From: Gammaproteobacteria bacterium
Lineage (GTDB): Bacteria; Pseudomonadota; Gammaproteobacteria; PS1; Pseudothioglobaceae
Assembly: GCA_029243595.1 (NCBI GenBank)
Contig: JAQWRQ010000028.1
Span: 1-40,320 of the forward strand
Reading direction: 5' to 3'
Length of the DNA: 40,320 bases
Each line of letters starts with the position of its first letter. Position 1 is the first letter of the stretch. Position numbers and translations under genes: made by a program. The notes under the pieces are model-generated. The model had not been told where the DNA came from. It saw only the letters and a list, made by a program, of their open reading frames with translations, and ran no database searches. This document shows, piece by piece, positions 791 to 28,483 of the stretch.

Positions 791-1975
791 ATGAATACAG
801 AACAAACATTAGCCGTTTTCCAGCGCGGTGCTGATGAAATATTGCCAGTTGATGAGTTAAAGAAAAAGCTTGCTAAAAACAAACCTTTACGCATTAAAGC
901 AGGTTTTGATCCAACAGCGCCTGATCTACATTTAGGACATACAGTATTAATCAATAAACTCAAACAATTGCAAGACTTGGGTCATGAGATTTTATTCCTG
1001 ATTGGTGATTTCACCGGCATGATTGGCGACCCAACTGGCAAGAGTGCTACACGCCCGCCACTCACCCAAGAACAAGTGGTTGAAAATGCTCAATCTTACC
1101 AAGACCAAGTATTTAAGATTCTAGACAAAGAAAAAACCAAGGTTGTTTATAACTCTGAGTGGATGAATAAAATGTCATCTGCTGATATGATCAAACTTGC
1201 TTCTCAGCAAACCGTTGCTAGAATGTTAGAGCGTGATGATTTTTCCAAGCGTTATAAATCTGGCAAAAGTATTTCTATTCATGAATTCCTCTACCCACTC
1301 ATTCAAGGTTACGACTCTGTTGCTTTAGAATCAGATGTTGAACTCGGTGGTACTGACCAAAAGTTCAATCTTTTGATGGGTCGTGAACTACAAAAACAAG
1401 CCAAGATGGAACAGCAAGTGATTCTTACTATGCCAATTTTAGAGGGGTTAGACGGCGTGCAAAAAATGTCTAAGTCGCTCGATAACTACATTGGTATCGA
1501 TGACAAACCAGATGACATGTTTGGAAAAATTATGTCTATCTCTGATGAGCTTATGTGGCGTTACCTTGAGCTACTCAGTTTCGAGACACTCGAAACTATT
1601 GCTAGCTGGAAAGCAGAAGTAGAAAATGGTGAAAACCCAAGAAACATCAAGTTCCGCCTAGCTGAAGAAATCATCACGCGCTTCCATAGCTCCGATGATG
1701 CCAAGCAAGCACAACAAAACTTCATTAATCGCTTTGCCAAAAACAAAGTACCAGATGAAATGCCAGAATTTAATTTTGATTCAGGCATCAAAATTGCCAA
1801 CCTATTAAAAGATGCTGGCTTAGTTAACTCTACTTCAGATGCCTATAGAATGATCAAAGAAGGCGCTGCCAAGATTGAAGGCGAGAAAATTACTGATCGT
1901 AATCTTGAGCCCGAATCAGGCACGGCTATCTACCAAGTTGGTAAACGCAAGTTTGCAAGGGTAACAATCGCATAA
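791..1975 (+). CDS. tyrS: Tyrosyl-tRNA synthetase
   Basis: Class I aminoacyl-tRNA synthetase that charges tRNA-Tyr in the cytoplasm. The HIGH-type signature is HLGH at residues 47-50 and the second signature is KMSKS at 225-229. The C-terminal ~60 residues look like an S4 RNA-binding domain. The length of 394 aa and the [10 protein letters not shown] sequence fit the TyrZ-type (short-spacer) bacterial enzymes. The ATG at 791 is 6 bp after the proA stop and has no strong Shine-Dalgarno sequence, so coupling to proA is possible. The stop codon lies about 20 bp upstream of the tmRNA, so the tmRNA promoter must overlap the end of tyrS. Confidence 0.97.
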
Positions 1976-2390: not shown

Positions 2391-2420
2391 TTGACAAATT
2401 GGCTTCTATTGCTGTATAAT
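2391..2420 (+). promoter_or_regulatory. Sigma70-type promoter of nirB
   Basis: Perfect consensus hexamers are visible: TTGACA at 2391-2396 and TATAAT at 2415-2420, with an 18 bp spacer. This is the best promoter in the window. Transcription should begin near 2427, leaving a leader of about 120 nt before the nirB ATG. An inverted repeat, TATAATA (2415-2421) and TATTATA (2429-2435), overlaps the -10 box and start point and could be an operator. The regulator is unknown. Confidence 0.85.
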
Positions 2421-2454: not shown

Positions 2455-2544
2455 TAGAAACTAACAGCGGTTTCTACAAATACAAAGATACCAATGGCGG
2501 TATAAAAAGTAAGACAACGAAGTCCTTTTAAATTCATTAAAAGG
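2455..2544 (+). promoter_or_regulatory. Structured nirB leader with tandem hexaloop hairpins and an RBS-sequestering hairpin
   Basis: Four possible hairpins are seen by eye. H1 pairs TAGAAAC (2455-2461) with GTTTCTA (2470-2476); a further T-G pair would leave the six-base loop AACAGC. H2 pairs ATACC (2488-2492) with GGTAT (2499-2503) around the six-base loop AATGGC. H3 pairs AAAAG plus GAC (2505-2515, with a TAA bulge) with GTC plus CTTTT (2522-2529) around the loop AACGAA. H4 pairs CCTTTTAA (2524-2531) with TTAAAAGG (2537-2544), which hides the ribosome binding site AAGGA. H3 and H4 share 2524-2529, so they cannot coexist. Paired hexaloop hairpins are known from ANTAR-type leaders (NasR, NasT) of nitrate/nitrite genes. 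That match, and any ligand, is inference. Confidence 0.5.
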
Positions 2545-2549
2545 AAAAT

Positions 2550-4913
2550 ATGAAAAATCTAATTATAGTTGGCACTGGTATGTCAGCAATGCGAGTAGTT
2601 GATGAAGTATTAACGCTCAACCCCGCCAAATATCAAATTACACTAATCGGTGAAGAAAACTACCTTCCTTATAACAGGATAATGCTTTCACCTGTTTTAT
2701 CAGAAGAAAAAACGTTTCAGGATATCATCACTCACGATGATAAATATTTCAAGGAAAACAACATTACCTTTAAGCCAGGTTTAAAGGTAATAGATATCCA
2801 CAAAGATGATAAAAATGTTTTGTTATCAAACGAAGAAGTATTGCATTATGATAAGTTAGTTTTGTGCACTGGATCTACATCATTTATCTTGCCAATACCT
2901 GGAAATAACATAGATGGTGTAATCTCATTTAGAGACATTAATGATGTTAAATTTATGAAATCCGCACGAGGCAAAAGTGCTGTAGTTATTGGCTCTGGTT
3001 TGCTTGGATTAGAAGCGGCAAATGGATTAAATGAATTAGGATTCTTGACTACTGTTATATCAAATGTTGGTTCACTTATGGACAGACAACTAGATATAGA
3101 ATCAAGTAAATTATTACAAACATCCTTAGAAGGTAAGGGGATTAAGTTCAGGTTTAATACAAATACTAAAGAAATACACAGCAAATACGATAAAGTAAGT
3201 TATGTAGAATTTGAAGACGGCAGTGAGACGACCACCGACTTAGTTATAATGGCAGTAGGAATTACTCCTAATGATTCATTGGCAAAAGGTTCTGGTATCA
3301 AATGCAACCATGGAATTCTAGTTAATGACCATATGCAAACTTACAGTGAATTCACGGACGATTGGGATTCATCAATATATTCAGTTGGTGAATGTGTATC
3401 GCATAAAGGAACTAACTTTGGCCTGGTAGCGCCATTATTTGACCAAGCAGCAGTTTGTGCCAGTCATTTAGTAGGGATCTCAGAAAAAATATTTAACTCT
3501 AAGGAGTACCCTACTCGTTTAAAAATATCAGGAACAGATGTATTTTCCGTGGGTGATTTTACAAGCAAAAGTGACGACGTTTTAATTTCATTTGATGAAG
3601 CAAATATAACACGTAAAAGGTTAACGATTAACAATGATATTTTAACTAGCGCTGTATTAATTAGTGACTCAAGTGATGGTTTATTCTACGAGAAACTAAT
3701 CAGTAACAAAACAAATATATCAAATATCAGAAAGACTTTATTGTTTGGTGATATCAGAACAAATACGGATGAAGTTGGTAATGCAACTGAACTAATGCCT
3801 AATGACGAGCAAGTATGTGGTTGTCTAGGGGTGTCAAAGGCTGATATTATCAAATCGATACCATTCTGTTCTAGTTTTAGTGAGGTTCAAAAAGAAACTG
3901 GGTGTGCAACTGGGTGTGGCGGGTGTAGGACTGTTGCTACACAAATATACGATTTTGTAACTGGTTTAGATACTATTGAAAAACTTGCCCTTTGTGATTG
4001 CACAACATTATCAACTGAAGAAGTAAGAGCTCATATCAGAGGGCTAGAAGAGATAAAAACAGTTAATGAAGTTAGGGAAAAATTAAATTTCGATGGTTCT
4101 TGTGATAAGTGTAGTAGTGCAATTAACTATTACTTATCTTCACAGTTTGATGAACTATATGTTCATAGTAATAAAAACAGCCCTCACAATGAAATGATGC
4201 ATGCCAATTTACAAAATGACGGCACTTATTCTATTGTGCCACAAATGCAGGGCGGACTAACCACACCAAGTGAACTAAGGGCTCTCGCTGATATTGCTGT
4301 AAAGTATGAAGTTCCAACTGTGAAAATTACTGGTGGTCAGCGTATTGATTTACTTGGTATTCCTGAAGATAACCTGAAACCAATGTGGAAAGAGATTGCT
4401 AATGCAGGCATGGAGTCTGGTTATGCATACGGAAAGGCAACAAGAACATGTAAAAGTTGTGTCGGAAAAGAGCACTGCTTAATGGGAACACAGGACTCTA
4501 TAGGTTTGGCAATCAAAATGGAGAATGCAGTTTGGTCGCATTTTATGCCACATAAATTTAAAATGGGTGTAAGTGGTTGTCCGCGTAATTGTGCTGAGGC
4601 AACGATTAAAGATTTTGGTGTGATTTGCACCGAAAAAGGTTATGAAATTCATGTTGCTGGTGCTTGCGGTATTCGCACCAAGGCATGTTTAAAAGACAGG
4701 TTCTTCGAAACTGAAGATGAGGTGGTCGAGTATCTTAAGGCATTTGTTCAGTTATATAGAGAAGAAGCAAACTATTTGGAGCGGGTGATGCACTTCGAAG
4801 AGAGGGTAGGTTTAGATTATATTCAAAATAAACTGGACACTGATGAGATGATTAAATTCTACTCAAGCAGACTACCAAAAACTAATGCAAATCCATGGAT
4901 GGATCGCGTGTAA
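2550..4913 (+). CDS. nirB: NADH-dependent nitrite reductase, large subunit (NirB)
   Basis: Cytoplasmic siroheme enzyme that reduces nitrite to ammonium with NAD(P)H. Domain order: an N-terminal FAD/NAD oxidoreductase (VGTGMSAMR from residue 8, second nucleotide motif near 145); a BFD-like [2Fe-2S] domain with C423, C425, C456 and C459; a second BFD-like segment ending in DGSCDKC; then the sulfite/nitrite reductase half-domain. Siroheme and [4Fe-4S] ligands are C637-x5-C643 and C677-x3-C681, within the family motif SGCPRNCAEATIKDFG. All key cysteines are present. At 787 aa it is shorter than E. coli NirB (about 847). No nirD small subunit follows; the next gene is a channel. Codon use is richer in ATA, AGA and AGG than in tyrS, which may mean transfer. 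Start ATG has AAGGA 5 bp upstream. Confidence 0.93.
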   Translation: MKNLIIVGTGMSAMRVVDEVLTLNPAKYQITLIGEENYLPYNRIMLSPVLSEEKTFQDIITHDDKYFKENNITFKPGLKVIDIHKDDKNVLLSNEEVLHYDKLVLCTGSTSFILPIPGNNIDGVISFRDINDVKFMKSARGKSAVVIGSGLLGLEAANGLNELGFLTTVISNVGSLMDRQLDIESSKLLQTSLEGKGIKFRFNTNTKEIHSKYDKVSYVEFEDGSETTTDLVIMAVGITPNDSLAKGSGIKCNHGILVNDHMQTYSEFTDDWDSSIYSVGECVSHKGTNFGLVAPLFDQAAVCASHLVGISEKIFNSKEYPTRLKISGTDVFSVGDFTSKSDDVLISFDEANITRKRLTINNDILTSAVLISDSSDGLFYEKLISNKTNISNIRKTLLFGDIRTNTDEVGNATELMPNDEQVCGCLGVSKADIIKSIPFCSSFSEVQKETGCATGCGGCRTVATQIYDFVTGLDTIEKLALCDCTTLSTEEVRAHIRGLEEIKTVNEVREKLNFDGSCDKCSSAINYYLSSQFDELYVHSNKNSPHNEMMHANLQNDGTYSIVPQMQGGLTTPSELRALADIAVKYEVPTVKITGGQRIDLLGIPEDNLKPMWKEIANAGMESGYAYGKATRTCKSCVGKEHCLMGTQDSIGLAIKMENAVWSHFMPHKFKMGVSGCPRNCAEATIKDFGVICTEKGYEIHVAGACGIRTKACLKDRFFETEDEVVEYLKAFVQLYREEANYLERVMHFEERVGLDYIQNKLDTDEMIKFYSSRLPKTNANPWMDRV

Positions 4914-4982: not shown

Positions 4983-5819
4983 ATGAGTTATTTAGTACCA
5001 ACAGATGTCGTCGAGAAAATGGTCATAGCCGGCGCAATGAAAATGAATATGACCACAAAAACAACTTTAATTAGAGCGATAATGGCAGGTGCAATCTTAG
5101 GATTAGCCGCTGTATTTGCAATTACAGTTGCAATTAAAAGTGGGTCAGCAGTCGCTGGTGCTGTGTTATTCCCAGTAGGATTTATTATGCTAATCCTATT
5201 TGGATATGATTTGCTTACAGGAGTTGTTGTGCTTGGACCATTAGCGGTACTTGCTAAACGAAACTGCGCTTCAGTAAAAAAGATGTGGAGGATGATTGGA
5301 CTTGTATTTGTTGGTAATTTCATCGGGGCTGCAATGGTGGCTGTAATGATGTCGTTTATTTGGACATATGGGTTTAGTATTGAACCAGGAAAGGTTGCTT
5401 CTAAAATTGCCACTATTGGTGAATCAAGAACAGTTGGATATGCAGCTTATGGTGCAATGGGTTTTGCTACTGTGTTTATTAAAGCAATGCTATGTAATTG
5501 GATGGTTTCTCTGGGTGTTATTGGAGCGATGATGTCGAAGGATCTTATGGGAAAAATTCTTGCTATGTGGATGCCAATTATGTTATTTTTCTATATGGGT
5601 TTTGAACACTCGATTGTGAATATGTTCTTGTTCCCTGCAGGATTAATTATGGGTGGAGAATTTTCTATAATAGACTATCTTCTGTGGAACGAAATTCCTG
5701 TAATCCTTGGAAATGTAGTTGGCGGATTAGTTTTAACTGGACTGCCTCTATACTATGCACATAAAAGAACCGTTGAGGGGAAAGTTGTAAATTCTGAATT
5801 TAAGGAAGCCACATTGTAA
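4983..5819 (+). CDS. nirC: Formate/nitrite-family channel, probably nitrite transporter NirC
   Basis: Pentameric inner-membrane channel of the FNT family (FocA/NirC). The 278 aa protein has about six hydrophobic segments and the family motif GFEHSIVNMFLFPAG, which contains the central histidine, plus a PLAVLAKRN segment in the first half. It begins with a good ribosome binding site, AGGAG at 4971-4975, seven bases before ATG. It lies 69 bp after nirB with no terminator between and is followed at once by a terminator, so nirB and this gene form one unit. That context favours nitrite over formate as substrate, but sequence alone does not separate NirC from FocA. Confidence 0.85.
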   Translation: MSYLVPTDVVEKMVIAGAMKMNMTTKTTLIRAIMAGAILGLAAVFAITVAIKSGSAVAGAVLFPVGFIMLILFGYDLLTGVVVLGPLAVLAKRNCASVKKMWRMIGLVFVGNFIGAAMVAVMMSFIWTYGFSIEPGKVASKIATIGESRTVGYAAYGAMGFATVFIKAMLCNWMVSLGVIGAMMSKDLMGKILAMWMPIMLFFYMGFEHSIVNMFLFPAGLIMGGEFSIIDYLLWNEIPVILGNVVGGLVLTGLPLYYAHKRTVEGKVVNSEFKEATL

Positions 5820-6634: not shown

Positions 6635-7024
6635 TTAAGCAATATCGAGCAGAGCTTCCATTGGTGATGGCGAAGTGATTGGAAGTTGCAACACACCATG
6701 CACGGGATAATCCACAGCATAGAGCACATTAAGATATTGCATTTCTTTCTTTTTTACCAAGACAATCACTTTAGTATTAGGTGAATACTTAATAAGACTG
6801 ACCAACAAACCCTCTATGTTGGACTTATAGATGCCGCTATAGTTAGTACTATAAGCATAGAAAAACTCTACTACGATAAAATCTGCTGGTTGCTTTTTAA
6901 CCAAAGCGGTGGCTTTACGAATACTATTAACTCTAAGCTCTGTGAAACCTTTACGCTGATACAGGGCGCCAAAGTCTGGAAACATCATCGATTCTATAAT
7001 TGAAACAACGATAGAATTAGACAT
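6635..7024 (-). CDS. Hypothetical protein, receiver-like fold
   Basis: A 129 aa soluble protein without signal peptide or membrane segment. The pattern is that of a CheY-like alpha/beta fold: an N-terminal hydrophobic strand (SIVVSII), a central strand DFIVVEFF where a receiver would have its phosphorylated Asp, a strand TKVIVLVKKK with the conserved-type lysine, and a last strand HGVLQLPI. The central strand has D followed by FIVVEF, so the usual phospho-Asp position appears to be Glu or missing; it could be a pseudo-receiver. No output domain is attached. It lies 9 bp from the small secreted protein gene upstream, so they are probably co-transcribed. Function unknown. Confidence 0.55.
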   Translation of the reverse strand: MSNSIVVSIIESMMFPDFGALYQRKGFTELRVNSIRKATALVKKQPADFIVVEFFYAYSTNYSGIYKSNIEGLLVSLIKYSPNTKVIVLVKKKEMQYLNVLYAVDYPVHGVLQLPITSPSPMEALLDIA

Positions 7025-28184: not shown

Positions 28185-28483
28185 TTTTCTGCTTCGTCTT
28201 TTTCCTTTGAACGGCGTCGAATCCTAAAAAAATTTCAATCACATAGCAGTATCTATGCTCAATCAAATTTTTGAGAATTTTCCTTGTTCAAAGAAAAAAT
28301 ACTTGCATAAAGAATACTCATAAAATTAATAGCTATTCTATGAGCCCGAATAAACAAGGAAATGATCTTTGAGCACTTAATCAATTTTTAACAATGGATA
28401 AATAAAGATACAAAAAGTATTTAACAAATCTATTTTGCTATCGTAGTATAATTCAAGCACTTTAATGTTCATTACTATTATCT
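28185..28483 (+). other. Gene-free region upstream of prs with nested inverted repeats
   Basis: About 300 bp without a credible gene. It holds an imperfect long hairpin: outer arms TTTTTCCTTTGAAC (28199-28212) and GTTCAAAGAAAAAA (28286-28299), inner arms AAAAATTT (28228-28235) and AAATTTTT (28265-28272), and tip CATAG/CTATG (28242-28257). A second helix TTTCCTTGTT (28279-28288) and AACAAGGAAA (28353-28362) uses part of the same 3' arm, so the two folds exclude each other. A TATAAT sits at 28447-28452, 32 bp before the prs ATG. It could be a structured leader of prs, the end of the tRNA transcript, or a palindromic repeat. Confidence 0.5.
28447..28452 (+). promoter_or_regulatory. Candidate -10 of prs
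   Basis: Perfect TATAAT 32 bp before the prs ATG. The best -35 is TTAACA at 28421-28426, but the spacer of 20 bp is too long, so only the -10 is supported. Confidence 0.4.

Follow-up and report, generated by a model that had tools for sequence, protein, structure and literature searches.

A putative ANTAR-responsive translational switch ahead of nirB in a SUP05-clade gammaproteobacterium

Transcription antitermination is the activity for which ANTAR regulators are chiefly known; the translational cases reported for them are repressive. For EutV, NasR and AmiR, the established features are dual hairpins with six-base loops bearing A at the first and G at the fourth position (A1/G4), the length of the linker between these hairpins, and antitermination (PMC3369931). 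Matches close to ribosome sites, and the suggestion of translational control, go back to Ramesh 2012. In actinobacteria, about 37% of the predicted ANTAR RNAs extend over the start codon or ribosome site; ANTAR binding represses in mycobacteria (PMC8164766).

The leader described here precedes nirB in the window, as we call the whole 40,320-nt stretch of DNA that was analysed. It resembles the EutV/eut, NasR/nasF and AmiR/amiE leaders in its two short A1/G4 hexaloop hairpins with a 9-nt linker (PMC3369931, PMC8934654), in a second hairpin that overlaps the following stem at its 5' base and in that the genome encodes an ANTAR protein; it differs from them in that the next stem holds the Shine-Dalgarno site, that there is no intrinsic terminator and that an extra hairpin (H1) lies upstream. 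With the actinobacterial ribosome-site RNAs it shares hairpins near the start codon and a proposed control of translation, but in those the ribosome site is inside the ANTAR hairpin and the protein represses, whereas here the site is in a separate stem that ANTAR would open (PMC8164766). NasS-NasT (PMC3795266) also combines a receiver-plus-ANTAR protein with nitrate/nitrite genes, unlike the present genome in that the latter lacks a NasS-like PF13379 protein and has its ANTAR gene in a putative glnK-amt operon. ANTAR RNAs over ribosome sites have already been proposed, and what would be new is the separate Shine-Dalgarno stem opened by ANTAR, of which no case was found in the open-access literature searched. 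From the sequence, the comparison with relatives and folding calculations, we consider it quite probable that this leader makes nirB translation respond to an ANTAR protein, which would activate it.

Promoter and hairpins of the nirB leader

The source genome (G000) is a 1.1 Mb MAG of 55 contigs with a completeness of 93%, belonging to the Thioglobaceae in the SUP05 clade, whose named members are Ca. Thioglobus, Ruthia, Vesicomyosocius, Thiodubiliella and the Bathymodiolus thiotrophic symbionts. The features of the locus are as follows (R1 and type B are defined in the next section).

1998-2344, tmRNA gene, upstream of the nirB promoter and leader
2391-2420, plus strand, sigma-70-type promoter, TTGACA-18-TATAAT (consensus match 12/12)
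2455-2476, plus strand, H1, 8-bp hairpin with the six-base loop AACAGC (paired 100% in four genomes)
2488-2503, plus strand, H2, ANTAR P1-like hairpin with the A1/G4 loop AATGGC (P1 placement of model R1)
2513-2524, plus strand, H3, ANTAR P2-like A1/G4 hairpin GAC[AACGAA]GTC (invariant stem; P2 placement of model R1)
2523-2545, plus strand, H4, 9-bp stem sequestering the Shine-Dalgarno site (fold; low accessibility in four of four type B leaders)
2541-2545, plus strand, Shine-Dalgarno site AAGGA of nirB, preceding the ATG at 2550
2550-4913, plus strand, nirB, large subunit of NADH-dependent nitrite reductase (TIGR02374, 727 bits, above the cut-off)
4983-5819, plus strand, formate/nitrite transporter family gene, 3' of nirB (PF01226, 3.7e-62)

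The leader between promoter and gene measures about 122 nt. Transcription is expected to start near 2427 and, since the promoter ends at 2420, H1 to H4 should all be transcribed. Elsewhere in the window, an ORF of 129 aa on the minus strand (6635-7024) resembles a receiver by eye and matches none of the Pfam families.

A sequence-only reading of this leader had already described four hairpins, and most of its description stands. H1 (arms 2455-2462/2469-2476, the last pair being U-G) has the announced loop with A1 and with A instead of G at position 4, and H2 (arms 2488-2492/2499-2503) has the five announced pairs around an A1/G4 loop. For H3, the core of three pairs at 2513-2524 is common to all relatives, but the outer pairs 2505-2509/2525-2529 that had been added to it require a 3-nt bulge and are missing in the relatives. 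H4 does cover the AAGGA, although it folds with one pair more than the 8 bp first assigned to it (arms 2523-2531/2537-2545). H3 is an alternative to the base of H4, so the proposed competition between both holds, but because H3 is conserved only at 2513-2524, the conserved overlap is restricted to the two bases 2523-2524 instead of the claimed 2524-2529.

The linker between H2 and H3 (2504-2512) is 9 nt long, inside the ANTAR range of about 5-12 nt. ANTAR targets are characterized by a pair of neighbouring hairpins, each with a six-base loop and a stem of 3 bp or more, which H2 (5 bp) and H3 (3 bp) provide. With scan rules taken from the literature and the relatives (A1/G4, a Y-G closing pair and a spacing of 19-25), neither strand of the 40 kb has a dual A1/G4 hexaloop pair other than H2/H3, and dual A1/G4 hexaloops at that spacing appeared in 0 of 20,000 shuffles. 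The fold of the leader (2453-2549) has a z of -4.7, with none of 200 shuffles being as good. The intrinsic terminator found in ANTAR antiterminator leaders is absent, as the earlier reading had suspected: no terminator-like site with a T-tract was detected in 2300-2700, and H4 is followed by AAAATATG, without a T-tract. The hoped-for ANTAR match in Rfam did not appear, as the covariance-model search of the window and the leader retrieved no relevant family at the gathering score; this result is uninformative because the family's canonical ANTAR units likewise have no ANTAR-type match.

In the free leader, the calculated probability of the AAGGA being unpaired is 0-0.03, and the accessibility of the nirB Shine-Dalgarno site is the lowest among the 28 genes of the window. 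The site begins 17 nt past the end of H3, so it is outside the dual hairpin motif.

Two types of nirB leaders in the family

A NirB search gave a match in 41 of 83 family genomes, and the 30 nirB leaders that were read fall into 26 of type A and four of type B. In type A leaders, a TATAAT promoter is followed by two consecutive units, each made of P1 and P2 hexaloop hairpins that overlap a T-tract terminator. In the second unit, P2 extends over about three pairs at the base of the terminator; automatic picking did not return this unit in L007, L020 and L023, and in L011, L012 and L029-L031 it was irregular. In the 41 gapless type A units, 88.7% of the cells are paired and the covariation score is 0.71, versus 0.37 when shuffled and at most 0.35 when slid. 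Type B leaders contain H1, H2, H3 and the sequestering H4 with no terminator, and are those of the window, ETNP2_MAG_37 (G049), Thioglobus KZ2-2019 (G054) and TC_Bin1 (G003). The window shares with the nirB leaders of Ca. Thioglobus, Ruthia, Vesicomyosocius, Thiodubiliella and the Bathymodiolus symbionts the gene, the regulator family and A1/G4 hairpin pairs with a Y-G closing pair, but those leaders differ in their two tandem hairpin-pair-plus-terminator units, mostly without a sequestering stem. The accessibility of the Shine-Dalgarno hexamer is 0.17-0.20 across the four type B leaders and mostly 0.26-0.93 in type A leaders, three of which are as low as type B.

The NirB proteins of the four type B genomes are 72-76% identical and form one side of a branch in the NirB tree (SH-aLRT 97), so a single change of leader type suffices, its direction being unsure because the root of this tree is unsure. 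We rejected a tie between leader type and the downstream transporter, as G004 has a nirB-FNT arrangement with a terminator-type leader. The idea that genomes of the same genus share the nirB of the window was mostly rejected as well, the NirB of G074, G075, G076 and G081 being only 43-44% identical; where flanks were read (in G075 and G081, and in G030, which is more distant), nirB is directly behind a kinase-like gene and has no type B leader. G080 has a NirB fragment that is 77% identical and located at a contig start.

A model built solely from type A units (R1; three Vesicomyosocius second units were excluded because their P1 choice was ambiguous in the automatic picking) did not match the leader when searched against the whole window, its sole match, at 28383, being due to chance. 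Applied unfiltered within the leader, its best placement put P1 precisely over H2 and P2 over H3, with 7.6 bits versus 1.0 for the next one. At the three related type B loci, R1 gave weak matches only, with the H2-H3 site of G049 at 9.0 bits amid chance matches. The exact H3/H4 core motif is found, in 83 genomes, only ahead of the four type B nirB genes.

A second model, built from the type B leaders (R2), was run against 369 genomes of the class. Its top foreign match consists of two A1/G4 hexaloops and a terminator ahead of an NMT1/NrtA-like gene in another gammaproteobacterial family (L177, G084:C12, 1501-1580; the gene was named by eye from the sequence), and its matches in G132 and G270, inside a coding frame, were judged to be due to chance. 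As a separate observation, GGCAAAGAATTCCTTTTAA occurs in ten identical copies, mostly about 20-30 kb apart, along 260505-1568131 of contig C1 of a 2.8 Mb relative genome (G053), which suggests a large repeated element.

Among the four type B leaders, covariation supports H1, where four of the eight pairs show two-sided changes and slid controls score far lower. H1 of G003 and G054 bears A1/G4 and fits as a third hexaloop, which is not so in the window. H2 is weakly supported, since the compensatory change looked for was found once (one two-sided change) together with one broken cell, and H2 of G049 has only two contiguous pairs. Covariation cannot test H3 or H4 because both are nearly invariant: the H3 stem does not vary, and H4, where compensatory changes had also been anticipated and none was found, has five invariant pairs and two pairs broken in half of the four genomes, with a 2x2 internal loop in G003 and G054. 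The whole G054 leader folds no better than shuffles. The predicted conservation of A1/G4 is observed in all four leaders, for H2 as well as for H3: H2 loops (AAUGGC, AGCGAA, AGCGAA and AACGAA) keep A1 and G4 while the other positions move, and H3 loops (AACGAA, AAAGAU, AAAGAU and AAAGAC) keep A1, A2, G4 and A5.

These data bear on two other explanations. H4 could be an independent attenuator responding to, for example, temperature, an sRNA or ribosome availability, with the hexaloops as relics of a lost ANTAR terminator unit. The H3/H4 overlap of just 2 nt, the loss of A1/G4 in H1 of the window and the imperfect stem in two leaders are in line with this idea, which we regard as unlikely given that A1/G4 and the C-G pairs closing H2 and H3 persist in the four genomes despite variation in the linkers and at the other loop positions, and that three of these genomes retain an ANTAR gene. 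Alternatively, the leader could control transcription in some other manner, for example through pausing or Rho-dependent termination, the ANTAR complex serving as an antiterminator; terminators are what the type A leaders of relatives use at nirB, and what the source genome uses in its other ANTAR leaders. However, H4 lacks a subsequent T-tract and the 3' arm of the stem is the Shine-Dalgarno site itself in four of four genomes, and we consider this route very improbable.

The ANTAR protein and its putative regulon

The search for an ANTAR-domain gene, proposed together with the initial reading, found one in the source genome: a single gene (L001:1477-2082, minus strand) encoding a receiver-plus-ANTAR protein of about 194 aa. 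Such a gene is present in 47 of 49 good family genomes and in three of the four type B genomes, and was not found in G049 (an 87% complete MAG). Nine of the 11 RNA-contacting residues of EutV (PMC8934654) are identical in this protein, and both mismatches also occur in NasR, according to the printed alignment. In the family, the position aligned to the phospho-Asp of EutV is Asn in all 30 proteins covering the site, and the conserved receiver Lys is replaced by Asp in 30 of 31; therefore, the ANTAR protein has a pseudo-receiver.

In the source genome, the ANTAR gene sits behind amt and a CBS-domain gene. A glnK-amt-CBS-ANTAR operon can be inferred across contigs C54 and C41, which are unjoined, glnK-amt-ANTAR being contiguous in relatives. 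Ahead of its glnK are two tandem units of an ANTAR hairpin pair plus terminator (L126, G000:C54, 906-1035, minus strand; matched by R1 and by eye), both with A1/G4 hairpin pairs and T-tract terminators by eye and also found in relatives, so the regulator probably controls its own operon. Two further tandem ANTAR terminator units, with P2-terminator portions nearly identical to each other, precede urtA of the urea ABC transporter (L127, G000:C25, ~815-1035, minus strand). In relatives, ANTAR units are located ahead of outer-membrane/porin-like genes and a nitrate-transporter-like MFS gene (L129, G054:C148, 711-751; L132, G081:C66, 587-625; L143, G081:C63), and the ANTAR regulon would therefore be wider than nitrogen enzymes.

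A NasS-like protein (PF13379) had no match in the source genome (93% complete), and only four of 83 family genomes were over the cut-off. Because of this, and of the placement of the ANTAR gene in the glnK-amt operon, the input is likely nitrogen status rather than nitrate.

Proposed mechanism and significance

The calculated energy of H4 is -6.8 kcal/mol and, once H3 forms (-0.7 kcal/mol), that of the leftover 7-bp H4 is -1.6 kcal/mol, so the off state is favoured by about 4.5 kcal/mol without protein. In the free mRNA, H4 would pair the Shine-Dalgarno site with CCUUUU and translation of nirB would stay low. Active ANTAR protein would bind the H2 and H3 hexaloops, and H3 would take U2523-C2524, the two basal pairs of H4, reducing it from about -6.8 to -1.6 kcal/mol and leaving a marginal stem that the ribosome could open. 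H3 would be transcribed before the 3' arm of H4, a timing that may favour capture by ANTAR during transcription. The recognition module would be that of the glnK-amt-CBS-ANTAR and urtA antiterminators, and the output alone would differ, the sequestering stem replacing the terminator. A point against this switch is that H3 alone still leaves the weak 7-bp H4.

Since the H3-stabilised state leaves a marginal H4 and H3 is made first, activation seems the natural reading of the direction. The opposite, that ANTAR binds the leader but represses translation by occupying the region beside the ribosome site, has precedents in mycobacterial and other actinobacterial ANTAR RNAs (PMC8164766), and the bound protein is predicted to adjoin the ribosome site, at about 25-60 nt before the start codon. 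We find it very improbable: the Shine-Dalgarno site is located outside the ANTAR hairpin, in a stem of its own whose base cannot pair when that hairpin forms, and canonical units of equal geometry (P2 over the 5' base of the stem that follows), both in this genome and across the family, imply activation. The translational ANTAR variant suggested by the sequence-only reading gains strong comparative support from the ANTAR gene, the canonical attenuators at glnK-amt-ANTAR and urtA, the nirB leaders of relatives, the A1/G4 kept in H2 and H3 of the type B leaders and the sequestering stem. That ANTAR opens this stem to activate translation, that one regulon mixes both outputs and that the output at nirB changed within the family is, taken as a whole, the account we favour, with reasonable rather than high confidence.

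If true, ANTAR outputs would be interchangeable, terminator-type switches being present elsewhere in this 1.1 Mb genome and also at nirB of relatives, which would offer a natural comparison for testing such interchangeability. No paper joining 'SUP05' and 'ANTAR' was found in the open-access literature searched. SUP05-clade sulfur oxidisers are important both as symbionts and in oxygen-minimum zones, and a nitrogen-uptake regulon covering ammonium, urea and nitrite is proposed here for them.
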